From an uncultured Flavobacteriales bacterium (lineage in GTDB: Bacteria > Bacteroidota > Bacteroidia > Flavobacteriales > Flavobacteriaceae), in assembly GCA_913009535.1 (NCBI GenBank), contig CAJVXR010000038.1, positions 1-12,653 of the forward strand: a stretch of DNA of 12,653 nucleotides, read 5' to 3'. The translations under genes were made by a program, and so were the position numbers. Numbering within the stretch: the stretch's first letter is position 1; the number at the start of each line of letters is the position of its first letter. Below are positions 1 through 6,431 of this stretch, in pieces. Under the pieces are notes generated by a model that saw only the letters and a list, made by a program, of their open reading frames with translations, was not told the origin of the DNA and made no database searches.

Positions 1-431
1 TCTTTCGTTTTAACTTTCTCAATAACCTTTGTAATCACTCCTCTTTCATTTGTAATAAATGTAGTTCTTAATATACCTTCATATTCTCTACCCATAAATT
101 TTTTAGGACCCCAAACTCCAAAAGAGTTAATAATATCTTTATCTACATCTGCTAATAAAGGGTAAGGAAATCCACCAAACTTTTGTGAAAATGAAGATTG
201 AGATTTAACCTTATCAGCACTAACACCATAGACTGAATAACCATTTTTTGATAATTCAGAAAAATTATCAGACAAATTACATGCTTGAGCAGTACAACCT
301 GGTGTATTAGCCTTAGGATAAAAGAATATGACACACTTTTTAGACGATAAGTCTTCAGTTTTAACAGTATTCCCTTTGTCATCAAGACATTCAAAAACAG
401 GAAGCTTGTCCCCTACTTTTAATAAACCCAT
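1..431 (-). CDS. bcp: Thiol peroxidase of the Bcp/PrxQ peroxiredoxin family, 3' end cut by window edge
   Basis: Thioredoxin-dependent peroxiredoxin that reduces hydrogen peroxide and organic hydroperoxides in the cytoplasm. Reading the minus strand from ATG at 431-429 gives 143 residues with the N-terminus MGLLKVGDKLPVFECLDDKG and the PrxQ active site YPKANTPGCTAQAC. The peroxidatic cysteine is C46 and the resolving cysteine is C51, the C-x4-C spacing of atypical two-cysteine PrxQ enzymes. Other family features are GVSADKV, the FPYPLLAD segment and an FGVWGPKKFMGREYEG block near residues 110-125. The reading frame is still open at base 1; against the usual length of about 150 residues only a short tail is missing. 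It is divergent from nth with a 38-bp gap, so the two share one small promoter region. The start is well supported because the family N-terminus begins at this methionine. I see no defect. Confidence in family is high. Confidence 0.95.
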   Translation of the reverse strand, partial: MGLLKVGDKLPVFECLDDKGNTVKTEDLSSKKCVIFFYPKANTPGCTAQACNLSDNFSELSKNGYSVYGVSADKVKSQSSFSQKFGGFPYPLLADVDKDIINSFGVWGPKKFMGREYEGILRTTFITNERGVITKVIEKVKTK

Positions 432-445
432 AATTGCTATATTTG
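418..445 (+). promoter_or_regulatory. Predicted promoter of nth (-7 TATATTTG)
   Basis: TATATTTG at 438-445 matches the Bacteroidota -7 consensus TAnnTTTG exactly and puts transcription start near 452, about 18 nt before the nth ATG at 470. The -33 position holds only TTTA (418-421), 17 bases upstream, inside the first codons of the divergent bcp gene. The -7 match is solid; the -33 match is poor. Confidence 0.45.
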
Positions 446-455
446 AAATTGAAAG

Positions 456-485
456 TAAATATAATATAAATGAATAAAAAGGAAA
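456..485 (-). promoter_or_regulatory. Possible promoter of bcp
   Basis: On the minus strand TATATTTA (463-456) is one base off the Bacteroidota -7 element TAnnTTTG, with TTTC (485-482) 18 bases upstream in place of the -33 TTTG. The predicted start near 449 leaves a leader of about 18 nt before the ATG at 431. Both elements are imperfect, so this is a weak call. Confidence 0.3.
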
Positions 486-1123
486 GTATAAAATTCATAA
501 TAGATGAACTGGAAAAAAAATATCCTAAAGTTCCTGTACCATTAGACCACAAAGACCCTTATACACTTTTAATAGCGGTACTTCTTTCAGCTCAATGTAC
601 TGATGTTAGAGTAAATAAAATAACACCAATTTTGTTTAAAAAAGCAGACAACCCATATGATATGATTAAAATGTCTGTAGAAGAAATCAAAGCTATAATA
701 AGACCATGTGGCCTGTCTCCAATGAAAAGTAAAGGAATTCACGGACTATCTGAAATCATAATTAATAAGCACAATGGTAAGGTGCCTGCAGACTTTGACC
801 TTTTAGAGGAACTTCCTGCAGTTGGGCATAAAACTGCTGGTGTCGTCATGTCTCAAGCATTTAAGGTGCCTGCATTCCCAGTAGATACGCATATACATAG
901 ACTTCTTTACAGATGGAAGATATCAACAGGTAAAAATGTAAAAAAAACTGAAGAAGATGCTAAAAAAGCATTTCCAAAAGATTTGTGGAACAAGTTACAT
1001 TTACAAATTATATGGTATGGTAGAGAATATTCACCAGCTCGAGGTTGGGATTTAAGCAAAGATATTATAACAAATAAAATTGGTAGAAAGAAAATAATTA
1101 ATGACTACCTAAAGTCTAATTAA
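470..1123 (+). CDS. nth: Endonuclease III (DNA glycosylase/AP lyase), variant without the iron-sulfur cluster cysteines
   Basis: Base-excision repair enzyme that removes oxidised pyrimidines and nicks the strand by beta-elimination. The 217-residue protein has the family N-terminal helix block with LLSAQCTDVRVN (about 38-49), the helix-hairpin-helix with LPAVGHKTAGVV carrying the catalytic lysine K121, and VDTHIHR with the catalytic aspartate D139; these correspond to K120 and D138 of the E. coli enzyme. The C-terminal region, where E. coli Nth has the C-x6-C-x2-C-x5-C [4Fe-4S] loop, reads GREYSPARGWDLSKD and has no cysteine at all; the only cysteines are C43 and C81. The fold is otherwise full length, so this looks like a natural cluster-less lineage and not a truncation. 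It is divergent from bcp and convergent with the sigma factor gene, and is probably monocistronic, ending at the hairpin near 1183-1206. Confidence 0.95.
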   Translation: MNKKESIKFIIDELEKKYPKVPVPLDHKDPYTLLIAVLLSAQCTDVRVNKITPILFKKADNPYDMIKMSVEEIKAIIRPCGLSPMKSKGIHGLSEIIINKHNGKVPADFDLLEELPAVGHKTAGVVMSQAFKVPAFPVDTHIHRLLYRWKISTGKNVKKTEEDAKKAFPKDLWNKLHLQIIWYGREYSPARGWDLSKDIITNKIGRKKIINDYLKSN

Positions 1124-1182
1124 GATTTATTTCTATCTGACCAAAATTTAAGCTTATAATATTTAATGATTTTGAATAGTCT

Positions 1183-1209
1183 AAAAGAAACTTAATTGTT
1201 TCTTTTTTT
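1183..1209. terminator. Hairpin terminator between nth and the convergent sigma gene
   Basis: Bases 1183-1191 (AAAAGAAAC) pair perfectly with 1198-1206 (GTTTCTTTT) around the loop TTAATT, and a run of seven T occupies 1203-1209. The stem is 9 bp but has only two G-C pairs. It lies 60 nt after the nth stop and about 95 nt after the sigma-factor stop, so it may serve both strands; the T run favours the nth direction. The rest of the 177-nt gap (1124-1300) shows nothing else I can name. Confidence 0.5.
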
Positions 1210-1300
1210 GGATTTAAATTTGATGATTGTAAGTCTTTTTTAAAGTAATTTTTTTGCATATTATATTTTTATTTATAACGAGCAAAATATTAATTTATTG

Positions 1301-1888
1301 TTATCTAGTAAGAGATATGTTTTTTTTAGAAATAATACTTCTTAGATTTATAAGTGCATATCGCATTCTCCCTAATGAAGTATTGATACTAACCCCAGTT
1401 TTATTTGAAATTTCCTTAAAACTTAAATCATTATAAAACCTATATACTAAAACCTCTTTTTGGTCAGCAGGTAGTAGCTCTATTAGGTCTCTAACATCGT
1501 TATCTATTTGATTTTTTATCAAATTATCTTCAGCATCAAGAGAATTATCTTTTAAAACTGAAAATATATCAAAACTGTCAGAGCTTTGAAATTTTTGAAG
1601 TCTCTTATTTTTTCTAAAATGATCGATTACTAAATTATGAGCTATTCTCATAACCCATGAGACAAATTTACCTTCCTCATTATAATTGCCCAATTTTAAA
1701 GTTCTAATAACTTTTATAAAAGTATCTTGAAAAACATCTTCTGTCAAATCTCTATCTAATATTTTAGAATAAATAAAATTGTAAAGCTTTTGTTTATGTC
1801 TTTTTATTAATATTTCAAGACAAAACTCGTCACCTTTTAAATAATCACTAATTAACTGAGAATCTGAAAATTTGTACTTATTAACCAT
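1301..1888 (-). CDS. ECF-like sigma-70 family RNA polymerase sigma factor
   Basis: An alternative sigma factor directing RNA polymerase to a regulon that cannot be named from this window. The 195-residue protein has two domains. Sigma-2 spans about residues 25-97, with the core-binding DVFQDTFIKV (51-60) and the -10-recognition helix containing GKFVSWVMRIAHNLVIDHFR (73-92). Sigma-4 spans about 135-185, with LPADQKEVLVYRFYNDLS followed by the helix-turn-helix FKEISNKTGVSINTSLGRMR (157-176). The linker of about 35 residues between them is acidic and serine-rich. There is no region 1 or 3, as expected for group 4 (ECF). No anti-sigma gene (FecR, RsiW or zinc-binding type) adjoins it; the neighbours are nth and uvrA. 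The ATG at 1888 is the only good start, since nearby upstream ATGs are out of frame. Its promoter is strong and the leader is about 90 nt long. It may belong to the widely conserved SigX-like flavobacterial group, which I cannot confirm. Confidence 0.9.
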   Translation of the reverse strand: MVNKYKFSDSQLISDYLKGDEFCLEILIKRHKQKLYNFIYSKILDRDLTEDVFQDTFIKVIRTLKLGNYNEEGKFVSWVMRIAHNLVIDHFRKNKRLQKFQSSDSFDIFSVLKDNSLDAEDNLIKNQIDNDVRDLIELLPADQKEVLVYRFYNDLSFKEISNKTGVSINTSLGRMRYALINLRSIISKKNISLTR

Positions 1889-1960
1889 AACATTACATTT
1901 TTACACAACAAGAAATTGTGATTTGTTTAAACTAAAAATTTAAAAAAAGTAATGTTATTC

Positions 1961-2002
1961 TATAGGCTTATGATTAATTGTTATATTCAAATATAGGCTT
2001 AT
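1961..2002. repeat. 11-bp direct repeat in the sigma/uvrA divergent region, candidate operator
   Basis: TATAGGCTTAT occurs at 1961-1971 and again at 1992-2002, a centre-to-centre period of 31 bp or about three helical turns. The right copy abuts and partly overlaps the -7 element of the sigma promoter; the left copy lies just downstream of the predicted start. Two phased copies around a promoter suggest a dimeric or paired repressor site, but no regulator is known. Confidence 0.4.
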
Positions 2003-2018
2003 TCATTTAATTTCCAAA
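1988..2018 (-). promoter_or_regulatory. Promoter of the sigma factor gene (TTTG-N19-TATATTTG)
   Basis: On the minus strand TTTG (2018-2015) and TATATTTG (1995-1988) are separated by 19 bases, an exact match to the Bacteroidota housekeeping promoter in both elements and spacing. The predicted start near 1981 gives a leader of about 93 nt before ATG 1888, unusually long next to the 10-20 nt leaders seen elsewhere here. The -7 element sits inside a 14-bp inverted repeat, TATATT-CA-AATATA (1982-1995). Confidence 0.65.
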
Positions 2019-2045
2019 AAAAGTAATAAAAAAGTAATCTTTAAG

Positions 2046-2075
2046 TTCGGATAGATTTAATATATATTATATTTG
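2046..2075 (+). promoter_or_regulatory. Predicted promoter of uvrA (-7 TATATTTG)
   Basis: TATATTTG at 2068-2075 matches the Bacteroidota -7 element exactly. TTCG (2046-2049), 18 bases upstream, is one base off the -33 TTTG. The predicted start near 2082 leaves about 20 nt before ATG 2103, including a purine-rich AGGGG (2093-2097) that could help ribosome binding. The -7 element overlaps an in-frame TTG at 2073, which argues against that codon as the start of uvrA. I see no LexA-type SOS box, but the SOS motif of this lineage is not one I can assert. Confidence 0.6.
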
Positions 2076-2102
2076 AAATTATTAAGATTTATAGGGGTAT
2101 AT

Positions 2103-4868
2103 ATGAAGAAAAGTAGTAAAAAAAATATTTATATAAAGGGGGCTAAACTTCATAATTTAAAAAATATTGATGTTGAAATACCAAGAAATAAATTAACTGT
2201 TATAACTGGATTGTCTGGCTCAGGTAAATCTACCCTAGCTTTTGACACTTTATATGCAGAAGGTCAAAGAAAATATGTTGAGAGTTTATCAAGTTATGCA
2301 AGGCAGTTTTTAGGTAAATTAGACAAACCTAAGGTTGATTATATTTCAGGAATTTCACCTGCGATAGCTATAGAACAAAAAGTAAACACAACTAATCCTA
2401 GGTCAACTGTTGGAACAAGCACCGAAATATATGACTATTTAAAACTTCTGTATGCAAGAATTGGAAAAACATACTCTCCTACTTCTAATAATATTGTTAA
2501 AAAAGATAGTGTAACAGACATTATTAAATTTGTAAAGGAGTTTGAAATTAATCAAAAACTTCTACTACTATCACCAATAAAAGTCACAGGTAAAAAAGAT
2601 TTCATAGAAAAATTAGATCTATTAAATAACCAAGGCTATAGCCGTGTAAAATATGATGGTAATGTCAGTAAAATTAATGATATAATTTACTCAAAAAATA
2701 ATTCGTTTTATTTAGTTATTGATAGAATAATAACACAAAAAGATGAGTCATTTTACAACAGATTAGCAGACGCTATTGAGATCGCAATATTTGAAGGAAA
2801 TGGAGTTTGTTTAATTGAAGATTTAAAAAACAAATCATCACACAGTTTTAATACCAGATTTGAATTAGATAATCAAGTTTTTTTAGAACCTTCTGTCAAC
2901 CTATTTAGTTTTAATAATCCCTATGGAGCATGTCCTAAATGTGAAGGCTATGGGGATATAGTAGGTATTGACAAAAACCTTGTTATAAAAAACAAAGAGC
3001 TATCAGTTTACAATGATGCAATACTTCCTTGGAAAGGGGAAAAGTTAAGTAAGTATAAAAAAGATTTTATAAATCAGAGTCACAAGTTTAATTTTCCAAT
3101 CCACAAACCTTATCATGAGCTTTCTATTGAGCAAAAAAATCTTTTATTTGAAGGAAATCAATACTTTAAAGGTATTAACGCCTTTTTTAATAAAATAGAA
3201 GCTAAATCTTACAAGATTCAAAACAGAGTTCTTTTGTCCAGATACAGAGGACAAACAATTTGCACTGAATGTCATGGTAATAGATTAAGGCAAGAAACTG
3301 ATTATGTTAAGATTAATGGCAAAGCATTATCTGAGCTAATTAATTTATCAGTTAAAAATTTATTAATATTTTTTAAAGATTTAAAGTTAAATGATTCAGA
3401 TAAGGAAATTTCTAAAAGAATTTTAATCGAAATTATTTCTAGATTAAATTACTTAATTAATGTTGGTTTAGACTATTTGACTCTTAACAGAAAGTCTAAA
3501 AGTTTATCCGGTGGAGAAAGTCAGAGAATTAATATAGCTACTTCTTTGGGAAGTAGTTTAGTTGGCTCTTTATATATACTAGATGAACCTAGTATAGGTT
3601 TGCACTCAAATGATTCTTTAAAATTAATTAAAGTTTTAAAGTCCTTAAGAGATTTAGGTAATACAGTTATTGTTGTAGAACATGATCACGATATCATGAA
3701 ACAAGCTGACCACATAATTGATATAGGACCTAAGGCAGGCTCAGAAGGTGGTAATTTGATGGCTGAAGGTACCTTTAAACAGTTCCTTAAACAAAAGTCA
3801 ATAACTGCAAGTTATTTAAATAAAGAAAAAGAAATATCTGTTCCAAAAATTAGAAGAAGTAGTAAAAAACATATAAAAATTTTTGGAGCTAGAGAAAATA
3901 ATTTAAAAAACATTAATATTAGTATACCACTAGGAGTTATCACAACTGTTACAGGCGTATCTGGATGTGGAAAAAGCTCGTTAGTTAGAAATATCTTATA
4001 TCCTGCTTTACAAAACGAACTAGGGATATACGAAAACAAGCCTGGAGATTATACAAAAATTGATGGTGATATAGACAGTATAGATTTTGTGGAATTTATA
4101 AATCAAAATCCTATTGGAAGATCCTCTAGATCAAATCCTGTGACTTATATAAAAGCATATGATGAAATTAGAAATCTTTTTTCTAACCATAAATTAAGTA
4201 AACAAAGGGGTTATAAGGCAAAACATTTTTCTTTTAATGTTGATGGTGGCAGATGTGACAAATGTAAAGGAGATGGAGAGATAACAATTGAAATGCAGTT
4301 CATGGCAGATGTTCATTTAATTTGTGACGATTGCAAAGGGAGTAGATTCAAAAGAGAAATTCTAGATGTAAAATTTTCGGAAAAGAATATATATGATGTT
4401 TTAAATATGACAATCAATGATTCATTAGAGTTTTTTGAAAAATCTAATGAAAATAAAATCTATAGAAAATTATTACCCCTAAAAAATGTTGGTCTTGGAT
4501 ATGTTAAATTAGGACAAAGCTCCTCTACTCTTTCTGGTGGTGAAGCTCAAAGGATTAAATTAGCGTCATTTTTAGGTAAGGCTAATCAAACTAAAAAAGG
4601 AGTGTTCATATTTGATGAACCAACTACTGGTTTACATACAGATGACATAAAAAAATTATTAAAATCTTTCAATGCATTAGTTGATTTAGGTAACACTATA
4701 GTAATTGTTGAACATAATTTAGAGCTGATAAAGTGTTCGGATCATATAATTGATTTAGGTCCAGTTGGTGGAGAAAAGGGTGGTCGCTTGATTGTTAAGG
4801 GTAAGCCTGAGTTTATAATAAAAAATAATGAATCATTAACTGCTAAATATTTAAAAGAATATTTGTAA
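2103..4868 (+). CDS. uvrA: Excinuclease ABC subunit A, damage-recognition ATPase
   Basis: UvrA dimerises, scans DNA for bulky lesions and loads UvrB in nucleotide excision repair. The 921-residue protein is close to the usual 930-950. The first ABC half has Walker A GLSGSGKS (36-43), a zinc module with C277, C280, C387 and C390, signature LSGGESQ (468-474) and Walker B ILDEP (D494, E495). The second half has Walker A GVSGCGKS (618-625), the essential zinc finger C718-x2-C721-x19-C741-x2-C744, signature LSGGEAQ (810-816) and Walker B IFDEP (D838, E839). All key residues are intact, so it should be active; the length and complete insertion domains argue against a UvrA2-type paralogue. ATG 2103 is chosen over an in-frame TTG ten codons upstream because the promoter -7 element covers that TTG and the family N-terminus begins near here. 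It is divergent from the sigma gene and followed by a sigma-54 site and a strong terminator. Confidence 0.97.
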   Translation: MKKSSKKNIYIKGAKLHNLKNIDVEIPRNKLTVITGLSGSGKSTLAFDTLYAEGQRKYVESLSSYARQFLGKLDKPKVDYISGISPAIAIEQKVNTTNPRSTVGTSTEIYDYLKLLYARIGKTYSPTSNNIVKKDSVTDIIKFVKEFEINQKLLLLSPIKVTGKKDFIEKLDLLNNQGYSRVKYDGNVSKINDIIYSKNNSFYLVIDRIITQKDESFYNRLADAIEIAIFEGNGVCLIEDLKNKSSHSFNTRFELDNQVFLEPSVNLFSFNNPYGACPKCEGYGDIVGIDKNLVIKNKELSVYNDAILPWKGEKLSKYKKDFINQSHKFNFPIHKPYHELSIEQKNLLFEGNQYFKGINAFFNKIEAKSYKIQNRVLLSRYRGQTICTECHGNRLRQETDYVKINGKALSELINLSVKNLLIFFKDLKLNDSDKEISKRILIEIISRLNYLINVGLDYLTLNRKSKSLSGGESQRINIATSLGSSLVGSLYILDEPSIGLHSNDSLKLIKVLKSLRDLGNTVIVVEHDHDIMKQADHIIDIGPKAGSEGGNLMAEGTFKQFLKQKSITASYLNKEKEISVPKIRRSSKKHIKIFGARENNLKNINISIPLGVITTVTGVSGCGKSSLVRNILYPALQNELGIYENKPGDYTKIDGDIDSIDFVEFINQNPIGRSSRSNPVTYIKAYDEIRNLFSNHKLSKQRGYKAKHFSFNVDGGRCDKCKGDGEITIEMQFMADVHLICDDCKGSRFKREILDVKFSEKNIYDVLNMTINDSLEFFEKSNENKIYRKLLPLKNVGLGYVKLGQSSSTLSGGEAQRIKLASFLGKANQTKKGVFIFDEPTTGLHTDDIKKLLKSFNALVDLGNTIVIVEHNLELIKCSDHIIDLGPVGGEKGGRLIVKGKPEFIIKNNESLTAKYLKEYL

Positions 4869-4879
4869 AAATTAATCTT

Positions 4880-4895
4880 TGGCACACTCTTTGCA
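4880..4895 (+). promoter_or_regulatory. Sigma-54 (RpoN) promoter, near-perfect
   Basis: TGGCAC (4880-4885), five bases, then TTGCA (4891-4895) reproduces the sigma-54 -24/-12 consensus TGGCAC-N5-TTGCW, with the invariant GG and GC exactly 12 bases apart. It begins 12 bases after the uvrA stop, in non-coding DNA. With GC at -13/-12, transcription should start near 4906 on the plus strand. There is no protein gene on that strand before the terminator at 4941-4978, so the natural product is a small RNA. No enhancer-binding protein gene or obvious enhancer repeat is visible nearby; upstream sequence is uvrA coding. Confidence 0.6.
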
Positions 4896-4906
4896 TTAAA
4901 TTTAAA

Positions 4907-4938
4907 AGTTAGTTTAATTTATTAGATAGTTAGTTTAA
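4907..4938 (+). repeat. Tandem 11-base repeat AGTTAGTTTAA inside the candidate small RNA
   Basis: AGTTAGTTTAA occurs at 4907-4917 and 4928-4938, identical in both copies with a 21-base period. The first copy begins at the predicted 5' end of the RNA and the second ends just before the hairpin. Both would be single-stranded in the RNA, which is what repeated seed regions look like. As DNA, 21 bp is two helical turns, so a protein site is also possible. Confidence 0.55.
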
Positions 4939-4940
4939 AA

Positions 4941-4978
4941 CCTTGCAAAACTTCTTGAAGTTTGCAAGGTTTTTTTTT
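4941..4978 (+). terminator. Strong intrinsic terminator, probably shared by uvrA and the candidate sRNA
   Basis: CCTTGCAAA (4941-4949) pairs with TTTGCAAGG (4961-4969); after one bulged A (4950), CTT (4951-4953) pairs with AAG (4958-4960) around the loop CTTG. Nine T follow at 4970-4978. This is a classic Rho-independent terminator for the plus strand, 72 nt after the uvrA stop. The T run overlaps the stop codon (TAA, 4979-4977) of the convergent flippase gene. The minus-strand side has only four T, so it is a weaker terminator for the glycan operon. Confidence 0.9.
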
Positions 4979-6431
4979 ATTTCCCCAGGAACTTATTCGT
5001 AAGATTATTAATATCAACAGAAAACTTTAAAAAGACAACAATTGATATATATACAAATGAAACAAGAATAGAATTTAAAATAATATTTAAAAACGGATCG
5101 AAGTCAAAATTTACATAGAACGATATTAAAAAACCAACTAAAATAAGTGAGATTACTTTGAAAGTATTTATAGTTACAGGATGTAATTTAAATTTTTTAT
5201 ATACATAGTAAACCTTTACTGAATTATACAAACAAACAGCTATTAAAGAAGATATAGCAGCTCCTTCAATTCCATATAAAGGAATAAGAATATAGTTTAA
5301 GTAAATTGTTGTAAAAATCAATATTGCTCCTATAAATACAATGAAATTGTAATATTTACTATTGAAGATAATCCCATCTATATTTCCTAAAAATGCATTA
5401 TAAAGTTTTGTAAAAGAAATAATAAGCACTACGTAATAACCTTCCTTGTAAGTAATGGGAATAAAAGAATAGAAATCACTAAGGTTAAATACTATTAATA
5501 GAAAAACTAGTCCACAAATAATCAATAAATTTAAGCTAGATTTTTGATATAAAATCCCTAAATCAGTGAAATTCTTATCATTTAGTAACTTTGAGCTAAG
5601 TGGATTGGCAATTTGAAATAAAGATCTTCTAGGTACAGTAATTAATGAACATATATATATTGCAACAGCATAGTAAGCTACCTTAGAAATATCTAAATAT
5701 TTTGCAATCATGAATTTATCAACCTCTAAAACAATATTAGCAACAGCTCCTGCAAGACAGATTATAATTAAATACCTAATTATTTGATTTAAATTCTTTG
5801 ACTTTTTTAATTTAAAATGAAATGGGTTATTTCTTAAAGAATAAACCATCATTATTAAAGTTCTTATCACATATACACATAAAACACACAATATAAATTC
5901 TTGCTCGTTTATAAACTGATAATGAATTAAAAAAAATAATAAAAAAATTAAAATTCTATGAAAAATTTCTTTTAAAAAATTCCCAAAAACAGAAATTAAT
6001 TTGATTTTGACTAGAGAATAAAAAACTTCAAAATAGGCAAAACTAAAAGCTGTAATAATTATTACCCAAATATTGGTGCTTGTGATATAAACATTTTGTG
6101 GGAGAAAATATTTAATAAAATCCATAGATGTTAATCCTAGAAAAACTAAAATGATTACGCTGATTAAAGGAATGATTAACATTGTACTTAAAAAGTAGTT
6201 TTTTTCATCAGGCGTATTATAAAAGGAGTAGAATTTAATTATAGCATTATGAGTGCCTAGTGAGATAAACGGTAACATAATAGTTGCTGTAGAAATAATA
6301 AAAGCTAAAAGACCATGGTACTCATCAGATAAAAAATAAGTATACAAAAACAATACGTTAAAAGCACCTAAAATAAATCCGACATAAGTAGAGATTGTAT
6401 TTTTAATTGATTGTCTAATTACTATACCCAT
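4977..6431 (-). CDS. Wzx-like oligosaccharide flippase (polysaccharide biosynthesis protein)
   Basis: An integral inner-membrane protein of 484 residues, almost entirely hydrophobic, with about 12-14 membrane helices by eye. It fits the MOP superfamily (Wzx/PST-type lipid-linked oligosaccharide flippases), which move undecaprenyl-linked glycans from the cytoplasmic to the periplasmic face. Features seen are the N-terminal RQSIKNTISTYVGFILGAFN start typical of these proteins, an early LGTHNAIIKFYS segment (about 58-69), VDKFMIAKYL in the middle helix bundle and GIEGAAISSLIA in the late part. It is the last gene of the four-gene minus-strand operon: its ATG overlaps the stop of the glycosyltransferase by one base (TAATG at 6433-6429), implying translational coupling. 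Substrate is unknown; the coupling suggests it exports a glycan built by the upstream enzymes. Family confidence is good, the substrate is inference. Confidence 0.85.
   Translation of the reverse strand: MGIVIRQSIKNTISTYVGFILGAFNVLFLYTYFLSDEYHGLLAFIISTATIMLPFISLGTHNAIIKFYSFYNTPDEKNYFLSTMLIIPLISVIILVFLGLTSMDFIKYFLPQNVYITSTNIWVIIITAFSFAYFEVFYSLVKIKLISVFGNFLKEIFHRILIFLLFFLIHYQFINEQEFILCVLCVYVIRTLIMMVYSLRNNPFHFKLKKSKNLNQIIRYLIIICLAGAVANIVLEVDKFMIAKYLDISKVAYYAVAIYICSLITVPRRSLFQIANPLSSKLLNDKNFTDLGILYQKSSLNLLIICGLVFLLIVFNLSDFYSFIPITYKEGYYVVLIISFTKLYNAFLGNIDGIIFNSKYYNFIVFIGAILIFTTIYLNYILIPLYGIEGAAISSLIAVCLYNSVKVYYVYKKFKLHPVTINTFKVISLILVGFLISFYVNFDFDPFLNIILNSILVSFVYISIVVFLKFSVDINNLTNKFLGK

Follow-up and report, generated by a model that had tools for sequence, protein, structure and literature searches.

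Downstream of uvrA, in DNA from an uncultured member of the Flavobacteriaceae, a 108-nt intergenic gap very probably encodes a small RNA (sRNA) of about 73 nt with its own sigma-54 type promoter. The gap lies in the stretch of 12,653 nt analyzed here (the window), between the uvrA stop (4868) and the stop codon of a convergent flippase gene (4977). The sRNA would probably act by base pairing. We tentatively propose that it is a sigma-54-transcribed, trans-acting regulator pairing with the leaders of nrdA and dnaA mRNAs and lowering their translation under stress, and we put the chances of this full account a little short of even. The features on which the argument depends are as follows.

2106..4868, plus strand: uvrA, the upstream gene, on the same strand as the predicted RNA (open reading frame listed from a TTG at 2073)
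4878..4894, plus strand: sigma-54 type -24/-12 promoter TTTGGCACACTCTTTGC, seen in the sequence and conserved in six sequences
4906..4978, plus strand: predicted small RNA, about 73 nt, delimited by the predicted +1, the rise in conservation at +1, and an end at the hairpin and T9
4906..4934, plus strand: conserved 5' block, the likely pairing region
4908..4914, plus strand: GTTAGTT, copy 1
4929..4935, plus strand: GTTAGTT, copy 2, 21 nt after copy 1
4937..4973, plus strand: terminator hairpin, from folding and from pairing kept across ten aligned sequences
4970..4978, plus strand: T9 tract, seen in the sequence
4977..6431, minus strand: convergent polysaccharide flippase gene (PF01943)

The promoter reads TGGCACACTCTTTGCA at 4880-4895, with TGGCAC at 4880-4885, five spacer bases, and TTGCA at 4891-4895. 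It has the TGGCAY-N5-TTG form of a sigma-54 promoter, with GG and G(C) elements ten bases apart, and both its coordinates and this distance are as a preliminary description of the DNA had claimed. Taking C 4894 as the -12 base places the predicted +1 at 4906, 12 nt farther on. Base composition predicts 0.0009 exact matches on the two strands of the window and 3e-6 in the gap, in keeping with the earlier judgment that a chance match there was unlikely, and a scan of the window allowing up to two mismatches found four matches, the single exact one being the site at 4880-4895. One correction concerns the end of the site. In six sequences the site ends in TTGCA, TTGAT, TTGTT, TTGCA, TTGTA, and TTGTA, so that the terminal CA varies; the conserved site is TTGGCAY-N5-TTG, and the C at -12 is variable among relatives. 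Upstream, the genes bcp, nth, an ECF sigma factor gene (1301-1888, minus strand), and uvrA occupy positions 3-4868 of the window, an order that recurs at L144 (genome G159), L145 (G339), L013, L040, L075, and L077.

Stops occur in all three forward frames of 4906-4978, which agrees with the earlier claim of an RNA stretch without a protein gene. Also as described before, the stretch ends at 4978 in a hairpin terminator, whose arms (about 4937-4949 and 4961-4973) run into nine T's; the segment 4869-4980 folds at -21.5 kcal/mol (z -2.2), and 5 of 200 shuffled sequences were equally stable. A simple terminator scan of the window did not list the 4937..4973 hairpin, perhaps because of a bulged A. 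By sequence alone, the locus thus has what a trans-acting sRNA is expected to have, namely its own promoter, a terminator, no open reading frame, and a conserved region outside the terminator. Searched against Rfam, the window gave no match at the gathering score, and 15 sources searched at E values up to 1 gave five weak matches, all below gathering. Membership in an Rfam family was rejected, the weak matches in L242 lying on the strand opposite to the sRNAs.

Statements on conservation and on rpoN rest on relatives and not on the window organism itself. Searching 397 genomes of the family with the flippase identified two close relatives, G159 (83%) and G339 (72%), from a genus of five genomes, and the UvrA of G404 is 97% identical to that of the window, making it the closest relative. 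The promoter-block-hairpin unit lies between uvrA and the flippase gene in all five, so the -24/-12 site is conserved together with the hairpin, a point that the preliminary description had left to be checked. Aligning six sequences showed that 13 of the 17 columns of the -24/-12 site are invariant, as are 1 of the 11 columns of the spacer from -11 to -1 and 27 of the 29 from +1 to +29; in the same alignment the invariant columns numbered 109 of 165 at the uvrA end, 23 of 32 across the hairpin, and 46 of 111 at the flippase end. Conservation therefore steps up exactly at the predicted start, the pattern expected of a promoter-driven RNA.

Four genomes outside the genus (L077, L210, L226, and L227; UvrA segments 57-66% identical) preserve the block GTTAGTTTAATTTATTRRATAGTTAGT, into which L077 has one extra base inserted, and have terminators of different sequence in which folding is retained. 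Across ten aligned sequences, 97.5% of hairpin cells were paired, compared with 93.1% when shuffled and 26-66% when slid. Six cells had changed on both sides, compared with 2.1 in shuffles, and three pairs had changed on both sides, no excess over shuffles.

Transcription from such a site would require RpoN and an activator. RpoN, the other check named beforehand, is encoded in all six relatives tested (G159, G339, G001, G002, G003, and G004), and each also has at least one strong match to PF00158 (E below 1e-60), so that rpoN and an enhancer-binding protein occur together in six relatives. G159 and G339 have a single strong match apiece, G001, G002, and G004 have two, and G003 has four. Weak PF00158 matches were uninformative, being present in 14 of 14 control genomes. 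By eye, the enhancer-binding proteins fall into a type of about 387 aa that has a receiver-like start and a type of about 414-425 aa that lacks it and adjoins an LptE-like lipoprotein gene. In Flavobacterium psychrophilum, Table 2B of PMC9723704 lists a probable sigma-54 regulator with LptE on one promoter, and the sigma-54 promoters reported there serve chaperone, envelope-stress, gliding, and exported-protein genes, with Rfp36 the sole RNA in the printed selection (PMC9723704).

Candidate targets came from searching the five genomes of the genus for AAACTAACTA, the repeat's reverse complement, with the reversed word ATCAATCAAA as the control. The word itself was not enriched in these genomes (76 matches, compared with 101 for the reversed word). 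From the 76 matches, 30 loci and 40 stretches were read, six matches being left out, three of them the sRNA's own antisense sites; the control likewise comprised 30 loci and 40 stretches from the 101 matches, including 6 of 22 from G403. Where the two words differed was in location. Non-coding sites made up 17 of 70 for AAACTAACTA and 2 of 73 for the control (p 0.0001), or 15 of 68 and 2 of 73 once the sRNA's own sites were removed (p 0.0005), orthologous sites not being independent. With sites inside long open frames excluded, 12 had an open reading frame start close downstream, compared with 2 in the control (p 0.004), and when coding overlap was allowed, an ATG-started frame of at least 60 codons followed 21 of 70 sites and 16 of 73 control sites, no difference. 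Strictly non-coding sites were sense to the leader in 10 cases and opposite in 4.

Conserved leader clusters were found in three genomes each for nrdA and dnaA and in four for an SF2 helicase gene, and Pfam confirms the three proteins. Before the helicase gene, AAACTAACTA lies 33 nt upstream in four of the five genus genomes (L346, L362, L370, and L403) and is followed by a short inverted repeat. In the opposite orientation, TAGTTAGTTT precedes an ABC transporter ATPase-like gene in three genus genomes (L369, L386, and L400).

Of 22 genomes chosen for their different forms of the sRNA, 16 yielded nrdA and 21 yielded dnaA, the latter with a leader in 18. AACTAAC occurred in 8 of 16 nrdA leaders and 7 of 18 dnaA leaders, compared with 35 of 896 others, a background that includes loci picked by motif; AACTAACTAAC occurred in 6 of 16 nrdA leaders, four of which are from the genus, and in 1 of 896 other leaders. 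Duplex energies were computed for each genome's own block with its own leaders and compared either with 851 leaders from other Flavobacteriaceae loci, none from the genus, or with 150 dinucleotide shuffles. Within the genus, nrdA paired better than all 851 leaders in four of four genomes and dnaA in four of five, the exception being G159 dnaA (p 0.13 by leaders, 0.10 by shuffles), and with 150 shuffles per leader the combined Fisher p was 1e-5 for nrdA and 8e-6 for dnaA, values that are inflated because both genes were picked by motif search in the same genus. The block of the window paired with the G404 leaders at -20.7 kcal/mol (dnaA) and -20.6 kcal/mol (nrdA), and none of the 851 leaders paired as strongly; with the leaders of G159, G339, G403, and G405, between none and 16 of the 851 paired as strongly, and the window's block did not always come first for those of G159, G339, and G405.

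Outside the genus, the combined shuffle p was 0.0045 for dnaA (13 genomes) and 0.025 for nrdA (12). Many pairs there were unremarkable, among them dnaA in G004, G065, G062, and G071 and nrdA in G004, G263, G071, and G151. The strongest was nrdA of G002 (-28.4 kcal/mol), where the sRNA has five overlapping GTTAGTT copies and the leader has AACTAACTAACC. Read backwards, the block paired equally well or better in 3 of 18 dnaA and 6 of 16 nrdA pairs, and for G404 nrdA the two directions were almost equal (-19.5 reversed, -19.9 kcal/mol forward). This reversed-block control and the looser leader count given above speak against the target part of our explanation, and the assignment of dnaA, nrdA, or both as true targets has, in our estimate, slightly less than an even chance of being right.

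A promoter-driven, base-pairing sRNA might instead act on other targets, the dnaA and nrdA matches being a product of selection in the motif search. Those two genes were chosen from 70 motif sites, the motif also occurs in the helicase leader and, in single genomes, with dnaJ-like and SusC-like genes, and outside the genus the reversed block often pairs equally well. Against this stand the weak but positive test outside the genus and the reversed word, which gave no non-coding leader cluster of at least three genomes among the 73 control sites read, few of them from G403. We regard this reading as rather unlikely, and as it overlaps the others, the probabilities attached to the several readings do not sum to one.

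Similar units in the wider family also count in favor of the preferred reading. A pattern of sigma-54 site, spacer, and GTTAGTT occurred in 72 of 397 family genomes (90 rows and 82 distinct sites by hand tally), compared with 22 for the reversed pattern. When 65 family entries in L184-L253 were read by script, 47 had a terminator and 9 lay inside an open reading frame; by the same rule, 227 of 1,500 random positions had a terminator. Their contexts include uvrA (by BLAST) and, by eye, lipA, an SPFH-domain gene, a histidine-kinase gene, and others. Among 80 uvrA loci, the pattern placed the unit directly after uvrA in six (L013, L018, L040, L070, L075, and L077), so the position after uvrA is not universal. 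From architecture, position, and GTTAGTT, we infer that these family members and the window's short form may be of common descent. The number of GTTAGTT copies varies, the window having two and L040 five that overlap.

Several further observations concern this wider family. Beside a lipA-like gene, sRNA copies stand in tandem about 160 nt apart, three in L241 (2239-2710) and five in L242 (2419-3212). In a second sRNA group, GAGTGGTTAC is conserved, probably within the loop of a 5' hairpin, and a sigma-54 site precedes GGTTGGTTAGTT by about 91-96 nt (L257, L261, L262, L263, L270, L274, L276, L289, L290, and others). A gene whose product is probably secreted comes after the sRNA in L070 (from 8065, with its own sigma-54 site), L200, L213, L244, and L245, and related secreted-protein genes with an arginine/serine-rich end have GGTTGGTTAGTT in their 3' region (e.g., L001 and L026). 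The 5' hairpins of family members differ between groups. One common fold for 27 members was rejected, since RNAalifold supports only the terminator, besides three pairs inside promoter DNA.

The 12-mer GGTTGGTTAGTT, present in many family RNAs, immediately precedes a terminator at 83 of the 114 places that were read (L254-L343 and L081-L102), a set biased by a pattern that required an ATG on the antisense side and made up of 90 loci from the matches listed and 22 others. It often follows a T run and precedes the terminators of both sRNAs and mRNAs, as a 3'-end element. A related pattern, AACTAACCAACC before an ATG, gave about 200 matches in 199 genomes and 45 when reversed (hand tally, among the matches listed). 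Of the 114 occurrences of the 12-mer, 81 were terminator only, 18 target-like only, 2 both, and 13 neither, which marks it as a pre-terminator element; AACTAACCAACC as an antisense target was dropped, as the share without a terminator is about that expected from the reversed control.

A second alternative is a real RNA whose GTTAGTT repeats form a putative platform for an RNA-binding protein, for example one with an RRM, making it a sponge or a chaperone-bound RNA with other partners. The 12-mer precedes terminators of sRNAs and mRNA 3' ends well above the random rate, the repeat copies vary in number, and Bacteroides sRNAs are reported to bind the RRM protein RbpB (PMC11697453). Such a platform does not predict long complementarity to the nrdA and dnaA leaders, and the RbpB probe motif given in PMC12119571, GUAGGAUA, differs from the motif here; we consider it unlikely. 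More doubtful still is that the block is a DNA operator, its direct repeats at +1 binding a repressor that also acts upstream of nrdA and dnaA. The two copies are indeed 21 bp apart, their reverse complement lies upstream of nrdA, dnaA, and the helicase gene, and both orientations occur before genes, but neither spacing nor copy number is kept at nrdA, and an operator leaves unexplained the related pre-terminator motif and the pairing that, in some leaders, runs across the block's AT-rich middle. An ordinary uvrA terminator, perhaps shared with the convergent flippase gene, beside a chance sigma-54 look-alike and with no separate RNA would suit a hairpin between convergent genes that can end uvrA read-through, but it is highly improbable given the joint conservation of promoter and block in all five genomes of the genus, the abrupt rise at +1, the similar units at places other than uvrA, and the very low chance expectation in the gap.

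Parts of the preferred reading, a base-pairing sRNA under sigma-54 control, have precedents elsewhere. The Qrr sRNAs of Vibrio are sigma-54 dependent and multicopy, so sigma-54-driven sRNAs are already known in Proteobacteria; they belong to another phylum and differ in predicted targets, and the RNA described here has no Rfam match at the gathering score. A stress sRNA acting on dnaA is known from the same group: EcpR1 of Sinorhizobium meliloti is stress induced and base-pairs with dnaA mRNA (PMC4414408). Pairing with dnaA mRNA, here predicted, is what the two share, whereas EcpR1 is alphaproteobacterial, is part of the stringent-response regulon, uses a conserved GC-rich loop for pairing, and also targets gcrA, and its abstract does not name nrdA (PMC4414408).

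Closer in phylogeny, the FopS and GibS sRNAs of Bacteroides are also from Bacteroidota and have a single-stranded 5' pairing stretch followed by a terminator, and FopS is multicopy; FopS has sigma-ABfr promoters as opposed to the -24/-12 site here, and the predicted and tested targets of FopS and GibS are polysaccharide-use genes (PMC11697453). The preliminary statement that no named sigma-54-controlled sRNA in this position was known in Bacteroidota needs care within the Flavobacteriaceae, where one sigma-54-driven RNA has been mapped: Rfp36 of F. psychrophilum, a putative regulatory RNA with a mapped transcription start on a sigma-54 motif (PMC9723704, Table 2A). Rfp36 and the RNA predicted here are likened by description and not by sequence, as short transcripts of the same bacterial family with a -24/-12 motif (PMC9723704). 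Among the matches listed from the open-licence literature, judged by title and the start of the abstract, no other relevant paper was found.

According to the model we favor, sigma-54 RNA polymerase would transcribe the RNA from 4906 in response to a signal passed through one of the few enhancer-binding proteins, possibly stress affecting the envelope or protein folding, to judge from F. psychrophilum, and the RNA would end at its own hairpin. The 5' block would then pair with target mRNA leaders near the start codon, and translation would presumably be lowered. The best-supported candidates, on complementarity in relatives, are nrdA (ribonucleotide reductase) and dnaA (the replication initiator), and the likely role would be that of a brake on DNA replication and on the supply of dNTPs when the cell is under stress. 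A broader scheme is speculative and improbable as it stands: a family-wide sigma-54 sRNA system in the Flavobacteriaceae might, by pairing with the leaders of dnaA and nrdA, make chromosome replication responsive to envelope or folding stress. The pairing would use a modular UUAGUU that also occurs in mRNA 3' ends, some with sigma-54 sites, and sRNAs and mRNA 3' fragments would form one regulatory pool.

To our knowledge, a role has been established for few Bacteroidota sRNAs other than those of Bacteroides. The sRNA group would make a ready family for Rfam. Assemblies of the genus are just 1.3-1.6 Mb, and the two of its five genomes that were tested keep rpoN and one strong activator match each. 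If the proposal is true, a sigma-54-driven sRNA for which candidate targets can be named would connect an alternative sigma factor with the control of replication in flavobacteria.
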